DNA from: Variovorax paradoxus
GTDB taxonomy: Bacteria > Pseudomonadota > Gammaproteobacteria > Burkholderiales > Burkholderiaceae_C
Length of the DNA: 64,000 nucleotides
Direction of reading: 5' to 3'
Assembly (NCBI RefSeq): GCF_030815975.1
Contig: NZ_JAUSXL010000002.1
Span: 806,001 to 870,000 of the forward strand
Below the pieces are notes generated by a model. It was not told the DNA's origin. It saw only the letters and a program-made list of their open reading frames with translations, and did not search any database. A program made the position numbers and the translations under genes. Numbering within the stretch: the first letter of the stretch is position 1; each line of letters starts with the position of its first letter. Below, in pieces: positions 50,990 through 60,105 of this stretch.

Positions 50990-53296
50990 ATGATGAAGCC
51001 ACTGACTTCGACCGGCAGCCGCCTCGCCGTCGTTGCACTCGCAGCGCAGATGCTGGTTGCCGCCACCTTGCTGCAGGCCGCGCCGCCCGCGTTCGCGCAG
51101 ACTGGCGATGCGCCGCGCCGGGGCGAGCCCATCACGCTCAACTTCGCCAACGCCGACATCGAGGCCGTGGCCCGCACCATGGCGGTGGTCACCGGCCGCG
51201 ACGTGGTGGTCGACCCGCGCGTCAAGGGCACGATGAATCTCGTCACCGACCGCGCCATCGCGCCGGCCGCGGCGTTCAACCAGTTCGCGTCCGCGCTGCG
51301 GCTGCAGGGCTTTGCGGTGGTGGAGGCCGAAGGGCTCTACAAGGTGGTGCCCGAAGCCGACGCCAAGCTCCAGACCCAGACGGTCAACACCGCGACACCC
51401 AGCGCCGGCTCGGTGGGCGGCAACCAGATCGTCACGCAGATCTTCAGGCTCAACTACGAGTCGCCGAACAGCCTGCTGCCGGTGCTGCGCCCGCTCATTC
51501 CGCCCAACAACACAATCAACGTGAACCCGGGCAACAACTCGCTGGTGATCACCGACTACGCGGACAACATGCGCCGGCTGGCGCGCATCATCGCGGCGCT
51601 CGACGTGCCCAATGCGTCGGACATCGAGGTGATCCCGCTCAAGCATTCGATCGCCACCGACATGCTGCCGCTGATCACCCGGCTGGTCGACGGCAGCGGT
51701 TCGGGCGCCACACCGGGCGCGGCCGCGCCGGGCACGGCCGATGCGTCGTTCCGCACCACCTTGCTGGCCGATCCGCGCAGCAACGCGCTGATCCTGCGCG
51801 CGGCCAATCCGGCGCGCGCGGCGCTGGTGCGCACACTGGTCGACAAGCTCGACCGCGCGCCTGCCGAGAGCAGCAACGGCGCGGCCGGCAACATCTACGT
51901 GGTCTACCTGAAGAATGCCGATGCGGTGCGGCTGGCGGCCACGCTGCGCGCCGCCATGGCGGCCAACCAGCTGCCCGGCACGCCGGGCACGCCGGGCGCG
52001 GCCGGCGGCACACCAACGTCGCAACCACAAGCCAATGCGCCGTCTCCGTTTCCAGTTAATTTCGGCCAGCAAGGTGGTGGAGGTTCATCAGCGGCCAACA
52101 CGCCGCTTAACAACGCTAACCAGCCATCTGTTGGGGGTCAGATACAGGCTGACCCCTCAACTAATTCGCTCATCATCACGGCGCCCGAACCTCAATATCG
52201 ACAGTTGCGAGCCGTGATAGACAGACTTGATGGCCGCCGCGCGCAAGTCATGATCGAGGCTTTGATCGTCGAAGTTAACGCAGTCAAAGCCGCTAACTTT
52301 GGCGTCCAATGGCAAAGCGCGCTCGGTCGCAACGCGGTTGTTGGCACTAATTCCAGTCTAGCCAGCACCAACATCTTAGCCTTAACTCAGGCACTAGCGA
52401 CCGGCGTTATTAGTCAAAACTCACTGCCATCCCCAGGATTGAATTTAGGCATCGCTGGCAAAATCGGTGGCAACTATGTGTTGGGCGCGATCGCAAATTT
52501 CTTTAGCAGCGATAACGATGCCAACATTCTCTCGACACCTAATCTTCTCACCCTTGACAATGAAGAGGCGAAGATTGTGATCGGGCAAAATGTGCCCTTC
52601 CCCACCGGCTCCTATGCCAGTACAACCGGGGTCCCTGGTATTAGTCCGTTTACTACCGTCGAACGCAAAGATGTAGGCTTAACGCTACGAGTTCGACCGC
52701 AAATCAATGAGAATGGCACCGTGAAGATGGTCATTTTTCAAGAAACCTCGGATGTTGACCGCACCACTCTCTCAAACCCTAATGGCCCAACAACAAATAA
52801 ACGATCAATCGAATCCAGCGTCTTAGTCGATGATGGTGGTCTCGTGATGCTTGGCGGCCTGCTATCAGACACGTATGGAAATACTACCGAGAAAATTCCA
52901 ATAGCTGGAGATATTCCTCTGTTTGGCAATCTTTTCAAGAATGAAGTCCGTTCGCGCGACAAGAAAAACCTCATGATGTTCTTGCGTCCCGTTGTGATGC
53001 GAGATGGGATGGCAACAGAGACTTTCGCCAATGATCGGTATGACGAAATTCGCACTCTTCAGCGACAAGCGCAACCCGATCCCGCCAACGTAATGTTACG
53101 CAACGTGGATGCCGCGCCGGTGTTACCCGAAAGATCAAGTCCGCGCTCGCGTGAGCAAACAGGGAATCTTCGAATGGAGGGCACCGTGCTTATTCCTCCA
53201 CCATCCCCCGCTGCAAAATCCGACCTAAGTCCAAATCCTTTGCGCGGTGCACCACCGCCTACTGCGGACCCAGCTAGTAAACAAGAATTACCTTAA
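50990..53296 (+). CDS. gspD: Secretin GspD, mosaic gene with foreign 3' half
   Basis: 768 residues from ATG 50990 (or 50993). Signal peptide to about residue 36 (PPAFAQ), N0-N3 domains (ITLNFANADIEAVARTM; IFRLNYESPNSLLPVL; VIPLKHSIATDMLPLI; IYVVYLKNADAVRLAATL), then the C-terminal secretin barrel (VMIEALIVEVNAVKAANFGV, ILSTPNLLTLDNEEAKIVIG, VERKDVGLTLRVRPQINENG, GGLVMLGGLLSDTYGNTTEKIP). It is the outer-membrane gate of the type II system. Odd: up to about 52010 codons are GC-rich like the neighbours; from there to the stop they are AT-rich (TTA, AAT, GAA, ATT) with no break in frame. The protein looks functional. Confidence 0.95.
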   Translation: MMKPLTSTGSRLAVVALAAQMLVAATLLQAAPPAFAQTGDAPRRGEPITLNFANADIEAVARTMAVVTGRDVVVDPRVKGTMNLVTDRAIAPAAAFNQFASALRLQGFAVVEAEGLYKVVPEADAKLQTQTVNTATPSAGSVGGNQIVTQIFRLNYESPNSLLPVLRPLIPPNNTINVNPGNNSLVITDYADNMRRLARIIAALDVPNASDIEVIPLKHSIATDMLPLITRLVDGSGSGATPGAAAPGTADASFRTTLLADPRSNALILRAANPARAALVRTLVDKLDRAPAESSNGAAGNIYVVYLKNADAVRLAATLRAAMAANQLPGTPGTPGAAGGTPTSQPQANAPSPFPVNFGQQGGGGSSAANTPLNNANQPSVGGQIQADPSTNSLIITAPEPQYRQLRAVIDRLDGRRAQVMIEALIVEVNAVKAANFGVQWQSALGRNAVVGTNSSLASTNILALTQALATGVISQNSLPSPGLNLGIAGKIGGNYVLGAIANFFSSDNDANILSTPNLLTLDNEEAKIVIGQNVPFPTGSYASTTGVPGISPFTTVERKDVGLTLRVRPQINENGTVKMVIFQETSDVDRTTLSNPNGPTTNKRSIESSVLVDDGGLVMLGGLLSDTYGNTTEKIPIAGDIPLFGNLFKNEVRSRDKKNLMMFLRPVVMRDGMATETFANDRYDEIRTLQRQAQPDPANVMLRNVDAAPVLPERSSPRSREQTGNLRMEGTVLIPPPSPAAKSDLSPNPLRGAPPPTADPASKQELP

Positions 53297-53408
53297 CTTC
53301 AATAGTGCCAACCAACAACCTGAAGGGAGACCAAAGCAGAGAAATACCTCATCACAATTTGATATCCATAAAAAAACCAAATCCAATATCATTATCAAGG
53401 GAATTCAA
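53297..53408. other. AT-rich gap after gspD
   Basis: No gene, hairpin or promoter is clear here. The base composition is much lower in GC than the surrounding operon. It is part of the imported block. Confidence 0.4.
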
Positions 53409-53756
53409 ATGAATATCTTCAAATACAGTGCAATCGCATTGCTTTTTTGTGCATTTTCAGCGCATGCAACTGGCGAACGGGTGACGTCCTGCTCAGGGTA
53501 CGGGCCGAATGGATCAATTCCGGTAGGCTGGGCATTAGTGCGGATTGAGGGCAATTGGAGTTGCGGCGTACCTTATGGAATTTTATATACTTGGGAAAAT
53601 CTCAACGGAAGAACATGGGGTTCCAGAGTCGAAGTCTGCAGCTTGAGCAATATACCTAATTGGTGGCCCGTTCAATACATCGGCAATTTTAACAACACCC
53701 CTCCTTGTTATCAGGCCGGGCCATACAGATACATAGTGGAATACAGAGGAAATTAA
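53409..53756 (+). CDS. Small secreted protein with four cysteines, function unknown
   Basis: 115 residues. ATG 53409 with AAGGGA a few bases upstream. Signal peptide MNIFKYSAIALLFCAFSAHA, giving a mature protein of about 95 residues with four cysteines (TSC, WSC, EVC, PPC), many Trp/Tyr/Gly and several Asn. Two disulphides are likely. I do not recognise the family. It lies between gspD and gspE inside the AT-rich block, in the operon direction. The usual T2SS gene set has nothing at this place. It could be a secreted substrate, a secretin accessory factor or a passenger of the imported DNA. Confidence 0.75.
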   Translation: MNIFKYSAIALLFCAFSAHATGERVTSCSGYGPNGSIPVGWALVRIEGNWSCGVPYGILYTWENLNGRTWGSRVEVCSLSNIPNWWPVQYIGNFNNTPPCYQAGPYRYIVEYRGN

Positions 53757-53772
53757 TCTTATTTCACAAATA

Positions 53773-53817
53773 CGACCAAAATTCGAAATACAACAAATTA
53801 AAGTCGAATTTTGGTCG
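53773..53817. repeat. Perfect 14-bp inverted repeat after the small secreted protein gene
   Basis: CGACCAAAATTCGA (53773-53786) and TCGAATTTTGGTCG (53804-53817) are exact reverse complements around a 17-base AT-rich loop. There is no T run next to the stem, so it is not a standard terminator, but it could slow polymerase or protect the 3' end of the upstream message. Confidence 0.85.
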
Positions 53818-53836
53818 GCCAAGCACCTTTTATTCA

Positions 53837-53905
53837 ATGAGCACGAGATCGTCGGCCTTAACAGAGAATCAAGCCCCCGAGCCATTAGTGATGGCATTTG
53901 ATTAA
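53837..53905 (+). pseudogene. Probable 5' stump of a foreign gspE
   Basis: A 22-codon frame, MSTRSSALTENQAPEPLVMAFD then TAA (the last eight residues, EPLVMAFD, resemble HPLPYAFA of resident GspE residues 3-10 in the PL..AF pattern). The resident gspE ATG begins 3 bases after the stop. Inference: this is the start of the donor's gspE, cut at the right end of the imported block, leaving two gspE beginnings side by side. The match is short, so confidence is limited. Confidence 0.45.
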
Positions 53906-53908
53906 ATA

Positions 53909-55300
53909 ATGAGACACCCCCTGCCCTACGCGTTCGCACGCAGCCAGCAGCTGCTGCTCGAAGCAGCCGACGACGGCAGCCACACGCTGTGGATGTCGAG
54001 CCATCCCTCGCGCAGCGCGGTCGGCGAGGTCACGCGCAAATACGGTGTGCAGGCCTTCGAGGTGCTGGCCGACGGCCCGCTCGCGCAGCGCATCAGCGCG
54101 GCCTATGCGCAGGGCGAATCGAGCGCCGCCGCGGTGGTGAGCGAGGTGCAGAGCGACGCCGACCTCTCGCGCATGATGCAGGAGCTGCCGGCGGTGGAAG
54201 ACCTGCTGGAAAGCGCCGGCGACGCGCCCATCATCCGCATGCTCAACGCGCTGCTCACGCAGGCCGCGCGCGACGGCGCAAGCGACATCCACATCGAGCC
54301 CTACGAGCGCACCTCGTCCGTGCGCTTTCGCATCGACGGCACGCTGCGCGAGGTGGTGCAGCCCAACCGCGCGCTGCACGCCGCGCTGATCTCGCGCCTG
54401 AAGATCATGGCCGACCTCGACATCTCCGAGAAGCGGCTGCCGCAGGACGGACGCATCAGCCTGCGCATCGGCACGCGCGCGGTCGACGTGCGCGTCTCCA
54501 CGCTGCCAAGCGCGCATGGCGAGCGCGCGGTGCTGCGCCTCCTGGACAAGACCGAATCGAAGCTCACGCTCGAATCGGTCGGCATGCAGGGCGACACGCT
54601 CGCGCGCTTCGAGAAGCTCATTTCGCAGCCGCACGGCATCATCCTGGTGACCGGCCCCACGGGCTCGGGCAAGACCACCACGCTGTACGCCGCGCTGGCG
54701 CGGCTGGACGCCAGCCGCAGCAACATCATGACGGTGGAAGACCCGATCGAATACGAGCTGCCGGGCGTGGGCCAGACGCAGATCAACGCCAAGATCGAGC
54801 TCACCTTCGCGAAGGCATTGCGCGCCATCCTGCGGCAGGACCCGGACGTGATCATGATCGGCGAAATCCGCGACTTCGAAACCGCGCAGATCGCCATCCA
54901 GGCCTCGCTCACCGGCCACCTCGTGCTTGCGACGCTGCACACCAATGACTCGGTCAGCGCCGTCACGCGGCTGACCGACATGGGCGTGGAGCCGTTCCTC
55001 TTGAGCTCGTCGCTTTTGGGCGTGCTCGCGCAGCGCCTGGTGCGCAAGGTCTGCACGGCCTGCGGCGGCGCCGGCTGCGATGTGTGCGGGCAAACCGGCT
55101 ACCAGGGCCGCACCGGCATCTTCGAACTGCTGGTGGCCAACGACGAAGTGCAGGCGCTCATTCATGGCAAGGCCGCCGAGAGCCGACTCTTCGAAGCCGG
55201 CGCGCGCGGCGGCCTGCGCTCGATGCGCGAGGACGGCGAGCGGCTGGTGCAGACCGGCATTACCTCGCGCGCCGAGCTGGTGCGGGTCACGCGCGAATAG
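53909..55300 (+). CDS. gspE: Type II secretion ATPase GspE
   Basis: 463 residues. Walker A GPTGSGKTTTLYAAL near 250-264, Asp box (MTVEDPIEYELPG), Walker B VIMIGEIRDFETAQIA, His box (LVLATLHTND) and a four-cysteine zinc motif (VCTACGGAGCDVCGQTG near 382). The cytoplasmic hexameric motor of the secretion platform. The composition returns to the high-GC norm within the first codons. No Shine-Dalgarno is visible before ATG 53909; the preceding bases belong to the foreign segment. Confidence 0.95.
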   Translation: MRHPLPYAFARSQQLLLEAADDGSHTLWMSSHPSRSAVGEVTRKYGVQAFEVLADGPLAQRISAAYAQGESSAAAVVSEVQSDADLSRMMQELPAVEDLLESAGDAPIIRMLNALLTQAARDGASDIHIEPYERTSSVRFRIDGTLREVVQPNRALHAALISRLKIMADLDISEKRLPQDGRISLRIGTRAVDVRVSTLPSAHGERAVLRLLDKTESKLTLESVGMQGDTLARFEKLISQPHGIILVTGPTGSGKTTTLYAALARLDASRSNIMTVEDPIEYELPGVGQTQINAKIELTFAKALRAILRQDPDVIMIGEIRDFETAQIAIQASLTGHLVLATLHTNDSVSAVTRLTDMGVEPFLLSSSLLGVLAQRLVRKVCTACGGAGCDVCGQTGYQGRTGIFELLVANDEVQALIHGKAAESRLFEAGARGGLRSMREDGERLVQTGITSRAELVRVTRE

Positions 55301-55318
55301 CCCGACGGCCTTTCTTCC

Positions 55319-56554
55319 ATGCCCGCCTATTCCTTCGAAGCCATCGATGCCAGCGGCCAGTCGCGCGAAGGCGTGCTCGAGGCCGACACCGCGCGCAGCG
55401 CCCGCAGCCTGCTGCGCGCGCAGGCGCTCATTCCGCTGTCGGTCACACCGGTGGGCAGCAGCCACGTCAACGGCACCGGCAATGGCGGCCTGCGCCGCTG
55501 GCTGGGCGGCGGCGCGAGGATCTTCAGCTCGACCGGTCTTGCGGTCTGGACGCGTCAGCTCGCGGGCCTCGTGTCCTCCGGCCTGCCGCTCGAACGCGCG
55601 CTGACCGCGCTCACCGACGAAGCCGAGACCGAGCCGCAGCGCAACCTGGTCGCGTCGCTGCGCGCCGAGGTCAACGCGGGCTCGCCTTTCGCGCGTGCGC
55701 TCGCGGCCCATCCGCGCGAGTTCTCGCCCATCTACACGGCAGTGATCGGCGCGGGCGAGCAGAGCGGCAACCTCGGCCTCGTGCTCGACCGGCTCGCCGA
55801 CGACTTGGAGGAGCGGCAGGCGCTGCAGCAGAAGCTCATCGGCGCCGCGCTTTATCCGGCCATCGTCACGCTGGTGGCGATCGTGATCGTGATCTTTCTC
55901 GTGAGCTACGTGGTGCCGCAGGTGGCGCAGGTGTTCGCGGGCACCAAGCGCTCGCTCCCCTTCCTCACCACCGTCATGCTGTCGCTGAGCGCGGCGGTGC
56001 GCAACTACGGGTGGTGGATGCTGGGCGGCGTGGTGCTCGCCGCCATCGCTGCGCGGTTGGCATTGGCGCAGGAGGCCTTCCGCCTGAAGTTCGATGCCGC
56101 CTGGCTCCGGCTGCCGCTGGTGGGCAAGCTCGCGCGCGGCTACAACGCGGCGCGCTTTGCCAGCACGCTGGCCATGCTGGCCACCGCCGGGGTGCCGATC
56201 CTGCGCGCGCTGCAGGCAGCTTCCGAAACGCTGGGCAACCGCGCCATGCGCGCGGATGCGCTCGACGCACTGGTGCTGGTGCGCGAAGGCGCGCCGCTGG
56301 CCTCGGCACTGGCGCAGAAAAAACGCTTTCCCGGACTGGTCTCGATGTTCGCGCGCCTGGGCGAGCAGACCGGCACGCTGCCGCTGATGCTGCAGCGCGC
56401 GGCCAACCAGCTGGGCGCCGAAGTGCAGCGCCGCGCGATGCACCTGGCCACTATCCTCGAGCCCCTCTTGATCGTGGCCATGGGCGGCGTGGTGATGCTC
56501 ATTGTGCTGGCGGTGATGCTGCCTATCATCCAGCTCAACCAGTTCGTCAAGTAA
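55319..56554 (+). CDS. gspF: Type II secretion platform protein GspF
   Basis: 411 residues, 18 bases after gspE. Two GspF repeats with WTRQLAGLVSSGLPLERALTAL in the first and FASTLAMLATAGVPILRALQAA in the second, and three membrane spans, the last at the C-terminus (VVMLIVLAVMLPIIQLNQFVK). Polytopic core of the inner-membrane assembly. Last gene of the gsp run. Confidence 0.95.
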   Translation: MPAYSFEAIDASGQSREGVLEADTARSARSLLRAQALIPLSVTPVGSSHVNGTGNGGLRRWLGGGARIFSSTGLAVWTRQLAGLVSSGLPLERALTALTDEAETEPQRNLVASLRAEVNAGSPFARALAAHPREFSPIYTAVIGAGEQSGNLGLVLDRLADDLEERQALQQKLIGAALYPAIVTLVAIVIVIFLVSYVVPQVAQVFAGTKRSLPFLTTVMLSLSAAVRNYGWWMLGGVVLAAIAARLALAQEAFRLKFDAAWLRLPLVGKLARGYNAARFASTLAMLATAGVPILRALQAASETLGNRAMRADALDALVLVREGAPLASALAQKKRFPGLVSMFARLGEQTGTLPLMLQRAANQLGAEVQRRAMHLATILEPLLIVAMGGVVMLIVLAVMLPIIQLNQFVK

Positions 56555-57900: not shown

Positions 57901-60105
57901 ATGAACTCACGCCGCAAATTCCTGACAGGCACCGCCACCACCGGTGCTGCCGCGCTCGCGCTCTCGGCCTTTCCGCCGAGCATCCGCCGCGCACTCGCCA
58001 TTCCCGCCAACAACAAGACCGGCACCATCAAGGACGTGGAGCACATCGTCATCCTGATGCAGGAGAACCGCTCGTTCGACCACTACTTCGGCACGCTCAT
58101 GGGCGTGCGCGGCTTCGGCGACCGCTTCACCATTCCGCTGCCCCAGGGCCGTGGCGTCTGGCAGCAACTCGACGATGCCGGCAAGGAAGTGCTGCCCTAC
58201 CATCTCGACGGTTCGAAGGGCAATGCGCAGCGCGTGGCCGGCACGCCGCACAGCTGGAGCGACGGCCAGGCTGCGTGGGCCGGCGGGCGCATGTACGAAT
58301 GGGTGCGCTACAAGAAAACCAGGACGGCGCCTTTCACGCAATCGATGGGCTACCTCGAAGAAGCGGAACTGCCGTTCCAGTTCGCACTGGCCAACGCCTT
58401 CACGCTCTGCGACGCGTACCACTGCAGCATGCACACCGGCACCAATTCGAACCGCATGTTCCTCTGGACCGGCACCAACGGCCCCACGGGCGCGAACGTG
58501 GCCACGGTCAACAACGAGTGGGATTCGATCGACAGCTCGGCCAACGGCTACAGCTGGAAGACCTATCCCGAGCGGCTGCAGGAAGCCAAGGTGAGCTGGA
58601 TGGTCTACCAGAACATGCCCGAGAACTTCGGCGACAACTCGCTGGCCGGCTTCAGGCAATACCGGCTCGCGAACGAAGCCTCCGGCAAGCCCGTGAGCAA
58701 CGACGTGGCCTCTCCCGCCTACGACCCGGCCAGCGACGACGCCGGCAATCCGCTCTACAAGGGCATTGCCAACACCATGCCCGACGGCGGCTTTCTCGAG
58801 CAGTTCCGCCAGGACATCAAGAACGGCAAGCTGCCCCAGGTGTCGTGGATCGTCGCGCCCGCGACCTATTCGGAGCACCCCGGCCCGTCGAGCCCGGTGC
58901 AGGGCGGCTGGTACATCCAGGAAACGCTCGATGCGCTCACCGCCGTGCCCGAGGTGTGGAGCAAGACCGTGCTGTTCATCAACTTCGACGAGAACGACGG
59001 CTATTTCGATCACATTCCTTCGCCGGCCGCGCCTTCCATCAACGCCGACGGAACGCCCGCGGGAAAGACCACGCTGCCGCCCGAAGCGCTCAAGCCCGAG
59101 TACTTCAATCACCCGAATCCGCCCGGCACCACCGACCAGCCGCCGCCCGACGGCCGCGTCTACGGCCCCGGCGTGCGTGTGCCGATGTATGTGGTGTCGC
59201 CCTGGAGCCGCGGCGGCTGGGTCAACTCGCAGGCCTTCGACCACACCTCGGTGCTGCGCTTCGTCGAGGCGCGCTTCGGGGTGAAGGAGACCAACATCAG
59301 CGATTTCCGCCGCGCCGTGTGCGGCGATCTCACGAGCGCCTTCAATTTCGTTTCTCCGAACAGCGAAGCACTGCCGGCACTCGCAGGCCGAAAGACCAAG
59401 GCGCAGGCCGACCAACTGCGCGCCGACCAGGAGGCGCTGTCGCAGGTGGCACTGCCGCTCGACCCGCTGCTGCCACGCCAGGCCGCCGGCACGCGCCCCT
59501 CGCGCGCGCTGCCCTACGAGCTGCACACGAGTGCCCGCGCCGATGCCGTGAACGGCAAGCTCCAGCTGATCTTCGCGAACACCGGCACCGCCAGCGCGGT
59601 GTTCCACGTCTACGACAAGCTCAACCTCGACCGCCTGCCGCGCCGCTACCTGGTCGAACCCGGCAAGACGCTCGACGATGCATGGAACGCGACGCGCGAC
59701 GACAGCGGTTTCTATGATCTGTGGGTGCTCGGGCCCAATGGCTTTCACCGCCACTTCAAGGGCGACCTGAACGCGCTTCGCGCCGGCGGCGTGGCCGTGC
59801 CCGAGGTGCGCGTGTGCTACGACATCGCCAACGGCAACGTGTACCTGGAAATGCGCAACGACGGCAAGAACGCCTGCAAGTTCAGCGTGCGCGCCAAGGC
59901 CTACCGAACCGACGGCCCGTGGACCGCGACGGTGGAAGGCGGCGCCAAGGCCGAGCTGCACTGGGATCTGTCGGCGAGCGGCGCGTGGTACGACTTTGCC
60001 GTGGCCTGCGATGCGGACACGAGCTTCGTGCGCCGCTTTGCCGGCCGCGTCGAGACCGGCCGGCACTCGGTGAGCGACCCGGCCATGGGTCTGGCCGATC
60101 TCTGA
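57901..60105 (+). CDS. Phosphocholine-type phospholipase C, Tat-exported
   Basis: 734 residues. Twin-arginine signal NSRRKFLTGTATTG at the start. Phosphoesterase core: VEHIVILMQENRSFDHYFGTL (about 45-65), MHTGTNSNR, INFDENDGYFDHIPSPAAP, and two C-terminal DUF756-type domains near 520-720. This matches the PlcH/PlcN family, which hydrolyses phosphatidylcholine and sphingomyelin. Known: such enzymes use Tat across the inner membrane and type II secretion across the outer one. The gsp locus lies just upstream, so it is a likely substrate. Predicted to be induced by phosphate shortage through the Pho-box-like site. Confidence 0.95.
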   Translation: MNSRRKFLTGTATTGAAALALSAFPPSIRRALAIPANNKTGTIKDVEHIVILMQENRSFDHYFGTLMGVRGFGDRFTIPLPQGRGVWQQLDDAGKEVLPYHLDGSKGNAQRVAGTPHSWSDGQAAWAGGRMYEWVRYKKTRTAPFTQSMGYLEEAELPFQFALANAFTLCDAYHCSMHTGTNSNRMFLWTGTNGPTGANVATVNNEWDSIDSSANGYSWKTYPERLQEAKVSWMVYQNMPENFGDNSLAGFRQYRLANEASGKPVSNDVASPAYDPASDDAGNPLYKGIANTMPDGGFLEQFRQDIKNGKLPQVSWIVAPATYSEHPGPSSPVQGGWYIQETLDALTAVPEVWSKTVLFINFDENDGYFDHIPSPAAPSINADGTPAGKTTLPPEALKPEYFNHPNPPGTTDQPPPDGRVYGPGVRVPMYVVSPWSRGGWVNSQAFDHTSVLRFVEARFGVKETNISDFRRAVCGDLTSAFNFVSPNSEALPALAGRKTKAQADQLRADQEALSQVALPLDPLLPRQAAGTRPSRALPYELHTSARADAVNGKLQLIFANTGTASAVFHVYDKLNLDRLPRRYLVEPGKTLDDAWNATRDDSGFYDLWVLGPNGFHRHFKGDLNALRAGGVAVPEVRVCYDIANGNVYLEMRNDGKNACKFSVRAKAYRTDGPWTATVEGGAKAELHWDLSASGAWYDFAVACDADTSFVRRFAGRVETGRHSVSDPAMGLADL

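Follow-up and report, generated by a model that had tools for sequence, protein, structure and literature searches.

In this work we have examined gspD, the gene for the outer-membrane secretin of the type II secretion system (T2SS), in a stretch of 64,000 nucleotides from a two-contig genome of Variovorax paradoxus (G000:C2:806001-870000, here called the window). The outer-membrane half of this gene, together with a small open reading frame (ORF) that adjoins it, seems to have been acquired by exchange with an AT-rich relative. That about 1.9 kb was imported into the gsp operon is in our judgement almost certain. The chimeric GspD channel very probably works, as can be inferred from its conserved coding pattern and from the full-length occurrence of the same type in two other records. 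The explanation which we favour as a whole, and which we hold to be highly probable, is homologous import from the gsp operon of an AT-rich donor. According to it, the segment from about 52000 to 53914 would have been replaced by recombination with the matching stretch of an unsampled relative, too recently for the base composition to have adjusted. One crossover would have fallen in the Gly/Pro-rich N3 loop of gspD, and the other where gspE begins, in its first conserved codons. The product would be a full-length GspD with a native periplasmic base (N0-N2) and a foreign barrel, lip, gate and pilotin-binding S-domain, and a donor gene for a small, possibly exported protein would have been placed between gspD and gspE. 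Our comparisons covered 101 genomes of the genus (this one included), 399 genomes of the family, a plasmid collection and a search of 5.8 billion proteins; a search of genome contigs yielded at least 80 gspD loci.

Composition step and borders of the block

The gene gspD (50990-53296, 768 residues) lies among other gsp genes, with a T2SSN-domain gene upstream, a T2SSE-domain gene downstream and, judged by eye from the ORF list, prepilin-like ORFs farther upstream. In 300-base windows the GC content is 0.65-0.75 before about 52000, 0.43-0.56 from there to about 53900 and again 0.70 in gspE. At third codon positions (GC3) it is 0.92 over residues 1-340 of gspD and 0.50 beyond them; 50-codon windows that start at codon 301 or earlier give 0.84-0.98, the one starting at 321 gives 0.64 and those from 341 onwards give 0.38-0.58. 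Fourfold degenerate sites give 0.93 for gspN, 0.94 and 0.54 for the first and second parts of gspD, 0.50 for the small ORF, 0.96 for gspE and 0.94 for gspF. Both window analyses confirm the drop inside gspD, which a preliminary description of this DNA had placed at about 52010, with a return to native composition at the gspE start (53909). The step itself stands, but native sequence resumes only at 53915. No sister strain examined has such a step: among 123 gspD loci with both halves measured, that is the window and 122 others (some from other genera, some orphan copies), GC3 drops from the first to the second half by 0.44 in the window and by 0.07 at most elsewhere.

The reading frame of gspD stays open through the whole change. 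A single chain contains the N0 domain (PF21305), three stretches of Secretin_N (PF03958) and the Secretin domain (PF00263), scores 577 bits with NCBIfam TIGR02517 (cut-off 351) and aligns with the solved GspD 5wln over residues 47-343 and 376-697. The preliminary statement that frame and secretin motifs run on uninterrupted was thus correct. In its N0, Secretin_N and Secretin domains and in a score above the NCBIfam cut-off for GspD, the protein resembles the T2SS secretins PulD, XcpQ and EpsD. It is unlike a typical GspD in that its halves appear to come from different lineages and its N3 loop is long and variable, and in that an ORF for a putatively exported protein separates the gene from gspE.

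Comparison with V. paradoxus NBRC 15149 shows how abrupt the change is. Residues 1-340 are 97.1% identical in protein and 96.1% in DNA, as against 77.0% and 67.4% beyond residue 340, and fourfold sites agree at 91% in the first half and 32% in the second. Over 422 codons of the second half there are 204 synonymous and 96 non-synonymous differences; such a preponderance of synonymous change is what one would expect if selection had maintained the protein in an AT-rich genome. We also profiled the identity per 500 bp to the closest three loci (L114, L083 and L086). It amounts to 0.89-0.98 over ten windows to either side of the block, never falls below 0.86 farther out and drops to 0.70-0.78 within the gspD part of the block; the spacer does not align and the gspE start is at 0.98. 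Six comparisons of sister loci with each other, this genome left aside, gave no comparable dip in gspD, although the 500-bp window over the N3 loop was slightly lower, at 0.94 in one and 0.93 in the other of the two most similar pairs.

The borders are sharp and the flanks homologous on both sides, with the 5' border at 51989-52010 and the 3' border at 53915. At the 5' end, mismatches to three sisters (NBRC 15149 and V. beijingensis among them) become frequent from 51989, and the sequence is AT-rich by 52010. This junction lies in a loop which is predicted to be disordered: residues 327-381 mostly have a pLDDT below 50 in a structure model of moderate quality (pLDDT 57, 37 sequences), which we used for loop positions only. 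In the PulD structure residues 288-303 are unmodelled (PMC6882859), and from our reading of the alignments these would belong to the same loop. At the 3' end, native DNA begins with codon 3 of gspE. The gene starts ATG AGA CAC in the window and ATG CGC CAC in the sister, and from the CAC onwards 294 of 300 nucleotides are identical to NBRC 15149. Since the last two donor codons encode the start and the arginine also found in the sister GspE, the donor stretch would have ended in a gspE of its own, which suggests that the donor was a gsp operon. An integrase- or transposase-borne insertion finds no support: a scan for mobility genes, covering the small ORF and two of the other ORFs of at least 100 residues that lie mostly in the block, gave no Pfam match.

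Relatives of the second half and the donor

The second-half type was found in two other GspD proteins, P0002 from Variovorax sp. CCNWLW235 (92% protein identity) and P0003 from a metagenome record (89-90%); further rows among the 120 matches listed from the protein database reach at most 79%. Both carriers have first halves of the V. paradoxus type. P0002 agrees with locus L004 of genome G004 at 333 of 334 positions over residues 1-335, at 17 of 35 over 336-370 and at 314 of 396 over 371-768, and on this alignment it is a second natural mosaic with a break at about the same place. Amino-acid make-up was tried as a proxy for the AT-richness of P0002 and P0003 and showed no useful difference.

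Could the second half have diverged in place, by local mutation bias or relaxed selection, without any import? Parts of this half are indeed more variable than the first half across 30 rows of the genus (entropy 0.55-0.99 for lip, S-domain, loop and tail, against 0.26). Such divergence is nevertheless very improbable given the size of the GC3 step relative to the 122 other loci, a 612-bp spacer unseen in relatives, the presence of the same type in P0002 and P0003 and the predominance of synonymous change. An assembly chimera or contamination is hardly credible either. It would agree with the lack of block DNA above 73% identity, besides one 32-nucleotide match, in the genomes of the genus that we compared. 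The block lies, however, inside a 5.3-Mb contig, the frame crosses the 5' junction, and P0002 and P0003, which are records of their own, combine this second-half type with similar first halves.

For trees of the two halves we chose 47 of 99 aligned rows, after dropping duplicates, fragments and rows from outside the genus. In the second-half tree the window, P0002 and P0003 form a clade with 100/100 support on a long stem inside Variovorax. In the first-half tree the three are scattered among rows of the V. paradoxus type, the window standing among V. paradoxus and V. beijingensis rows. Holding the second half of the window together with L114, L083 and L086 was rejected by the approximately unbiased (AU) test (p = 5.8e-8). 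The two halves therefore differ in their nearest relatives and in their trees. The preliminary proposal that homologous recombination with a lower-GC relative had swapped this half of gspD is borne out by the composition step, the nearest relatives and the AU test alike; of the two results which that description had named as refuting it, common relatives of both halves and a like step in sister strains, neither was encountered among the loci examined.

Several observations weigh against homologous import from a donor operon. A single origin of the first halves of the three carriers was not rejected (AU p 0.135; the identical pair P0002/L004 was not constrained), nor was a second-half clade of all V. 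paradoxus-type rows and the three carriers (AU p 0.293); at least two independent exchanges are on these results likely but not proven. We also compared first half, second half and gspE over 37 rows, leaving out P0002, P0003 and the orphan copies. The second half contradicts 10 of the 16 well-supported first-half clades and 10 of the 13 gspE clades, and first half and gspE conflict with each other too (6/16 and 5/13 clades). Moreover, the gspE of this genome pairs with L137 and not with L086 or L114. The operon has thus recombined outside the block as well; in these alignments the second half disagrees most, but its flanks are not conflict-free. Finally, the donor DNA was not found: the best identity in the 101 genomes of the genus was 73%, besides one 32-nucleotide match at 89%, the best protein identity was 79% in the same genomes, and outside the genus it was 64% among the matches listed in the 399 family genomes. 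In plasmids and phages the search for a donor yielded a single match, a Comamonas gspD that is 67% identical and covers 19% of the block.

Within gspE, the stretch at 54901-55400 has an identity of 0.90 to NBRC 15149 and 0.93 to L137, the locus with which the gene groups, and may perhaps represent a second, smaller exchange.

Mosaic alleles made by homologous import are familiar from penA and porB of Neisseria. The window gspD resembles them in its sharp in-frame borders, in the foreign block within a native gene and in a second-half type shared across strains. It differs in that the gene is a secretion channel, in its unsampled donor of very different base composition and in the extra ORF which would have come along. 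In the open-access literature, searched by titles and the beginnings of abstracts, we met no report of a natural mosaic GspD.

The spacer and its small ORF

We looked for the start motif of GspE within 1.5 kb after gspD in 102 rows, of which 13 had no motif, 2 were this genome and 87 were others (some genomes twice). In all of these 87 the spacer between gspD and gspE is at most 96 bp. In the window it is 612 bp and holds the small ORF, an inverted repeat and a 22-codon ORF (Table 1). The preliminary description had mentioned neither the small ORF nor the repeat.

Table 1. Features of the gspD-gspE region, in window coordinates
Feature	Position	Strand	Remarks
Native part of gspD	50990..51988	+	signal peptide, N0, N1, N2, first strand and helix of N3; identity to NBRC 15149 97.1% (protein), 96.1% (DNA); GC3 0.92
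5' junction zone	51989..52010	+	Gly/Pro-rich codons 334-341 of the N3 loop; mismatches to sisters frequent from 51989, divergent and AT-rich from about 52010
Donor-type second half of gspD	52010..53296	+	rest of N3, secretin barrel, lip, gate, S-domain, tail; identity to NBRC 15149 77% (protein), 67% (DNA)
gspD-gspE spacer	53297..53908	+	612 bp, 42% GC; no alignment to six sister loci
AAGGGA	53397..53402	+	resembles a ribosome-binding site, 6 nt upstream of the small ORF's start codon (ATG); read from the sequence
Small orphan ORF	53409..53756	+	115 residues; signal-peptide-like start, four cysteines in the mature part (by eye)
Inverted repeat, hairpin	53773..53817		perfect, 14 bp with a 17-nt loop; between small ORF and gspE; folding z -5.6
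22-codon ORF	53837..53905	+	same frame as gspE, its stop 3 nt short of the start of that gene; no Pfam match
gspE	53909..55300	+	first two codons donor-like (ATG AGA), native from 53915; 294/300 nt to NBRC 15149; T2SSE domain

The product of the small ORF is a possible exported protein. We consider it somewhat probable that the ORF is real and was imported with the second half of gspD; it would then be expressed and would have been brought by the donor operon. Its codon pattern is closer to that of the block than to that of the host genes. Several points count against this part of the explanation. The better fit to the block could be produced by AT-richness alone, and the length of the ORF is weak evidence, 82 of 2000 dinucleotide shuffles reaching 115 codons. 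It has no homologue at E <= 0.001 in the search of 5.8 billion proteins and no match in Pfam, NCBIfam, PHROGs, phages, plasmids or viral contigs. Its structure model is poor (pLDDT 42) and was not used. A pilotin of the AspS or PulS type was considered and rejected, there being no Pfam or NCBIfam match and no lipobox by eye. Weak matches (E 1e-4 to 1e-3) in 9 of the 398 other family genomes were treated as chance: in seven of them (L032-L036, L038 and L040) the best match falls at one place of a large ORF which by eye resembles the window ORF at 57901-60105, in L039 a frame of 77 residues was matched and L037 showed none. The ORF at 57901-60105, downstream of the gsp genes, is a phospholipase-C-like gene with Phosphoesterase and PLipase_C_C domains, and its product is a possible secreted substrate.

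Is it possible that two events took place, an exchange in gspD from one source and, independently of it, an insertion that brought the small ORF and the inverted repeat? The perfect repeat adjoins the ORF, and no relative examined has a spacer above 96 bp. Set against this are the similar AT-richness of the two parts (fourfold GC of 0.50 and 0.54), the single border at the gspE start which accounts for both, and the repeat itself, whose exact pattern was absent from the 100 other genomes of the genus (1 of 101, this genome). We regard two events as a minor possibility, though one to be taken more seriously than divergence in place or faulty assembly, and prefer a single import.

The 22-codon ORF had been taken in the preliminary description for the 5' stump of a second gspE. 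This identification does not hold up, since by eye none of the 87 rows has an upstream in-frame counterpart, and the ORF is more likely a chance frame or a leader. With gspD displaced from its place immediately before gspE, it could serve the latter as a leader.

Exchange between gspD copies and the channel surface

Orphan secretin paralogues such as XqhA of Pseudomonas aeruginosa raise another question: could the block have come from a second gspD of the same genome by gene conversion? Variovorax, too, has gspD copies without a following GspE start motif, one of them adjoining an alginate-lyase-domain gene. The window gspD is unlike such paralogues in that it stands in an operon and has no second copy among the matches listed, and the orphan at L106 carries an AMIN domain. 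Conversion within a genome does occur in the genus. We compared ten genomes which had two GspD matches of at least 70% among the matches listed in the 101 genomes, and in four of them the two copies share long tracts of 97-100% DNA identity: from about residue 361 to the end in G463 (L218/L219), 161-720 in G479 (L224/L225), 401-640 in G512 (L232/L233) and 361-720 in G032 (L236/L237). Outside the tracts and beyond the first 40 residues, the copies are identical at only 0.80, 0.60, 0.58 and 0.76, respectively; the first 40 residues of paired copies are at 0.35-0.46. Judged from these alignments, the shared tracts are the product of intragenomic gene conversion. In G464 the identity is 0.96-0.98 over residues 281-400, and the other five genomes have no such tract.

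For the block in the window, conversion from an own orphan copy is nonetheless very unlikely. No further GspD-like match above 29% identity is among those listed for this genome, so that an own paralogue was not the donor. The six orphan copies sampled have a second-half GC3 of 0.91-0.95, and those of them in the tree do not group with the second half of the window. Furthermore, none of the six is followed by a GspE start motif within 1.5 kb, while a gspE start is just where the imported stretch ends. An unsampled AT-rich relative thus remains the donor that we prefer.

The left edge of the converted tract lies at the N3 loop in G032 and G463, just past it in G512 and far off in G479, and the loop is therefore a frequent junction but not the sole one. 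Taken together with the other mosaics, the tracts shared by paralogues make the outer half of GspD look like a recombining module, with three junctions at the disordered N3 loop and others elsewhere. Exchange of the same kind thus recurs, both in P0002 and P0003 with their common second-half type and in four of ten two-copy genomes, and this weakens the earlier view that a working mosaic secretin is unusual.

Three observations on individual copies may be added. In the second copy of G032 (L237, G032:C1:2970300-2975300) the coding sequence breaks into two frames at about residues 359-365, close to where the converted tract has its edge. At L106 (4424-11483) an AMIN-domain GspD, again without a GspE start motif within 1.5 kb, has as neighbours a LacI-type regulator and a gene that encodes both an alginate-lyase and an F5/8 type C domain; it is perhaps a substrate-linked spare secretin. 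In the predicted GspD at L071 (protein P0004 of G033, Variovorax sp. Root318D1), whose gene is truncated by the contig end, about 70 residues near the C-terminus are tandemly repeated, possibly as an assembly effect.

What might the exchange have changed? The N0-N2 domains of GspD contact GspC, and this inner docking surface would have been kept. The exchange may have been retained because it altered what the channel surface binds or passes, whether phage tail fibres, toxins or substrates. At 62 of 428 second-half positions the three carriers share no residue with nine rows of the V. paradoxus type, and these include 473-479 in the putative extracellular lip, five positions within 538-549 in the putative gate and 9 of 28 within 673-700 in the S-domain. 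In 30 rows of the genus the entropy is 0.59 for the lip, 0.55 for the S-domain, 0.23 for the gate and 0.26 for the first half. Lip and S-domain are thus variable across the whole genus, and the differences of the carriers are no test of selection. The lip and gate positions are putative in that we assigned them through alignments to solved chains with the aid of PMC6882859 and PMC8563730.

The lytic Vibrio cholerae phage VP2 binds GspD (EpsD) with its tail fibre (PMC8101328). A GspD can therefore be a phage receptor, which is a reason for surface variation and makes receptor escape a fair idea. The EpsD case is one of Vibrio cholerae. By analogy, escape from a phage or toxin through exchange of GspD is plausible; that such selection acted here we regard as doubtful. 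Perhaps the import had no functional consequence, one working secretin half being replaced by another by chance. We give this about an even chance, and on present data neutral replacement is at least as likely as receptor escape. Most of the changes are synonymous, and trees conflict along the operon, first half and gspE included. Less in keeping with neutrality are the recurrence of exchange in the same half and the differences at the putative lip and gate and in the S-domain, though such sites vary genus-wide.

A broader hypothesis, which we put forward only tentatively and consider rather unlikely as it stands, is that the outer half of GspD in Variovorax is a cassette exchangeable between species and between operon and second copies. 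The N3 loop would be its favoured junction, the outer channel would change with the inner docking half kept, and some cassettes would travel with a matched small exported partner. In any case this natural chimera, whose parts meet at a defined loop, suggests that the T2SS secretin consists of two separable modules, a periplasmic base and an outer channel. Together with the paralogues that share near-identical tracts, it offers a testable case for exchange in a channel which in another species is a phage receptor. The recurrence of the exchange and the apparent separability of the two channel halves are, in our view, the most interesting part of the finding.

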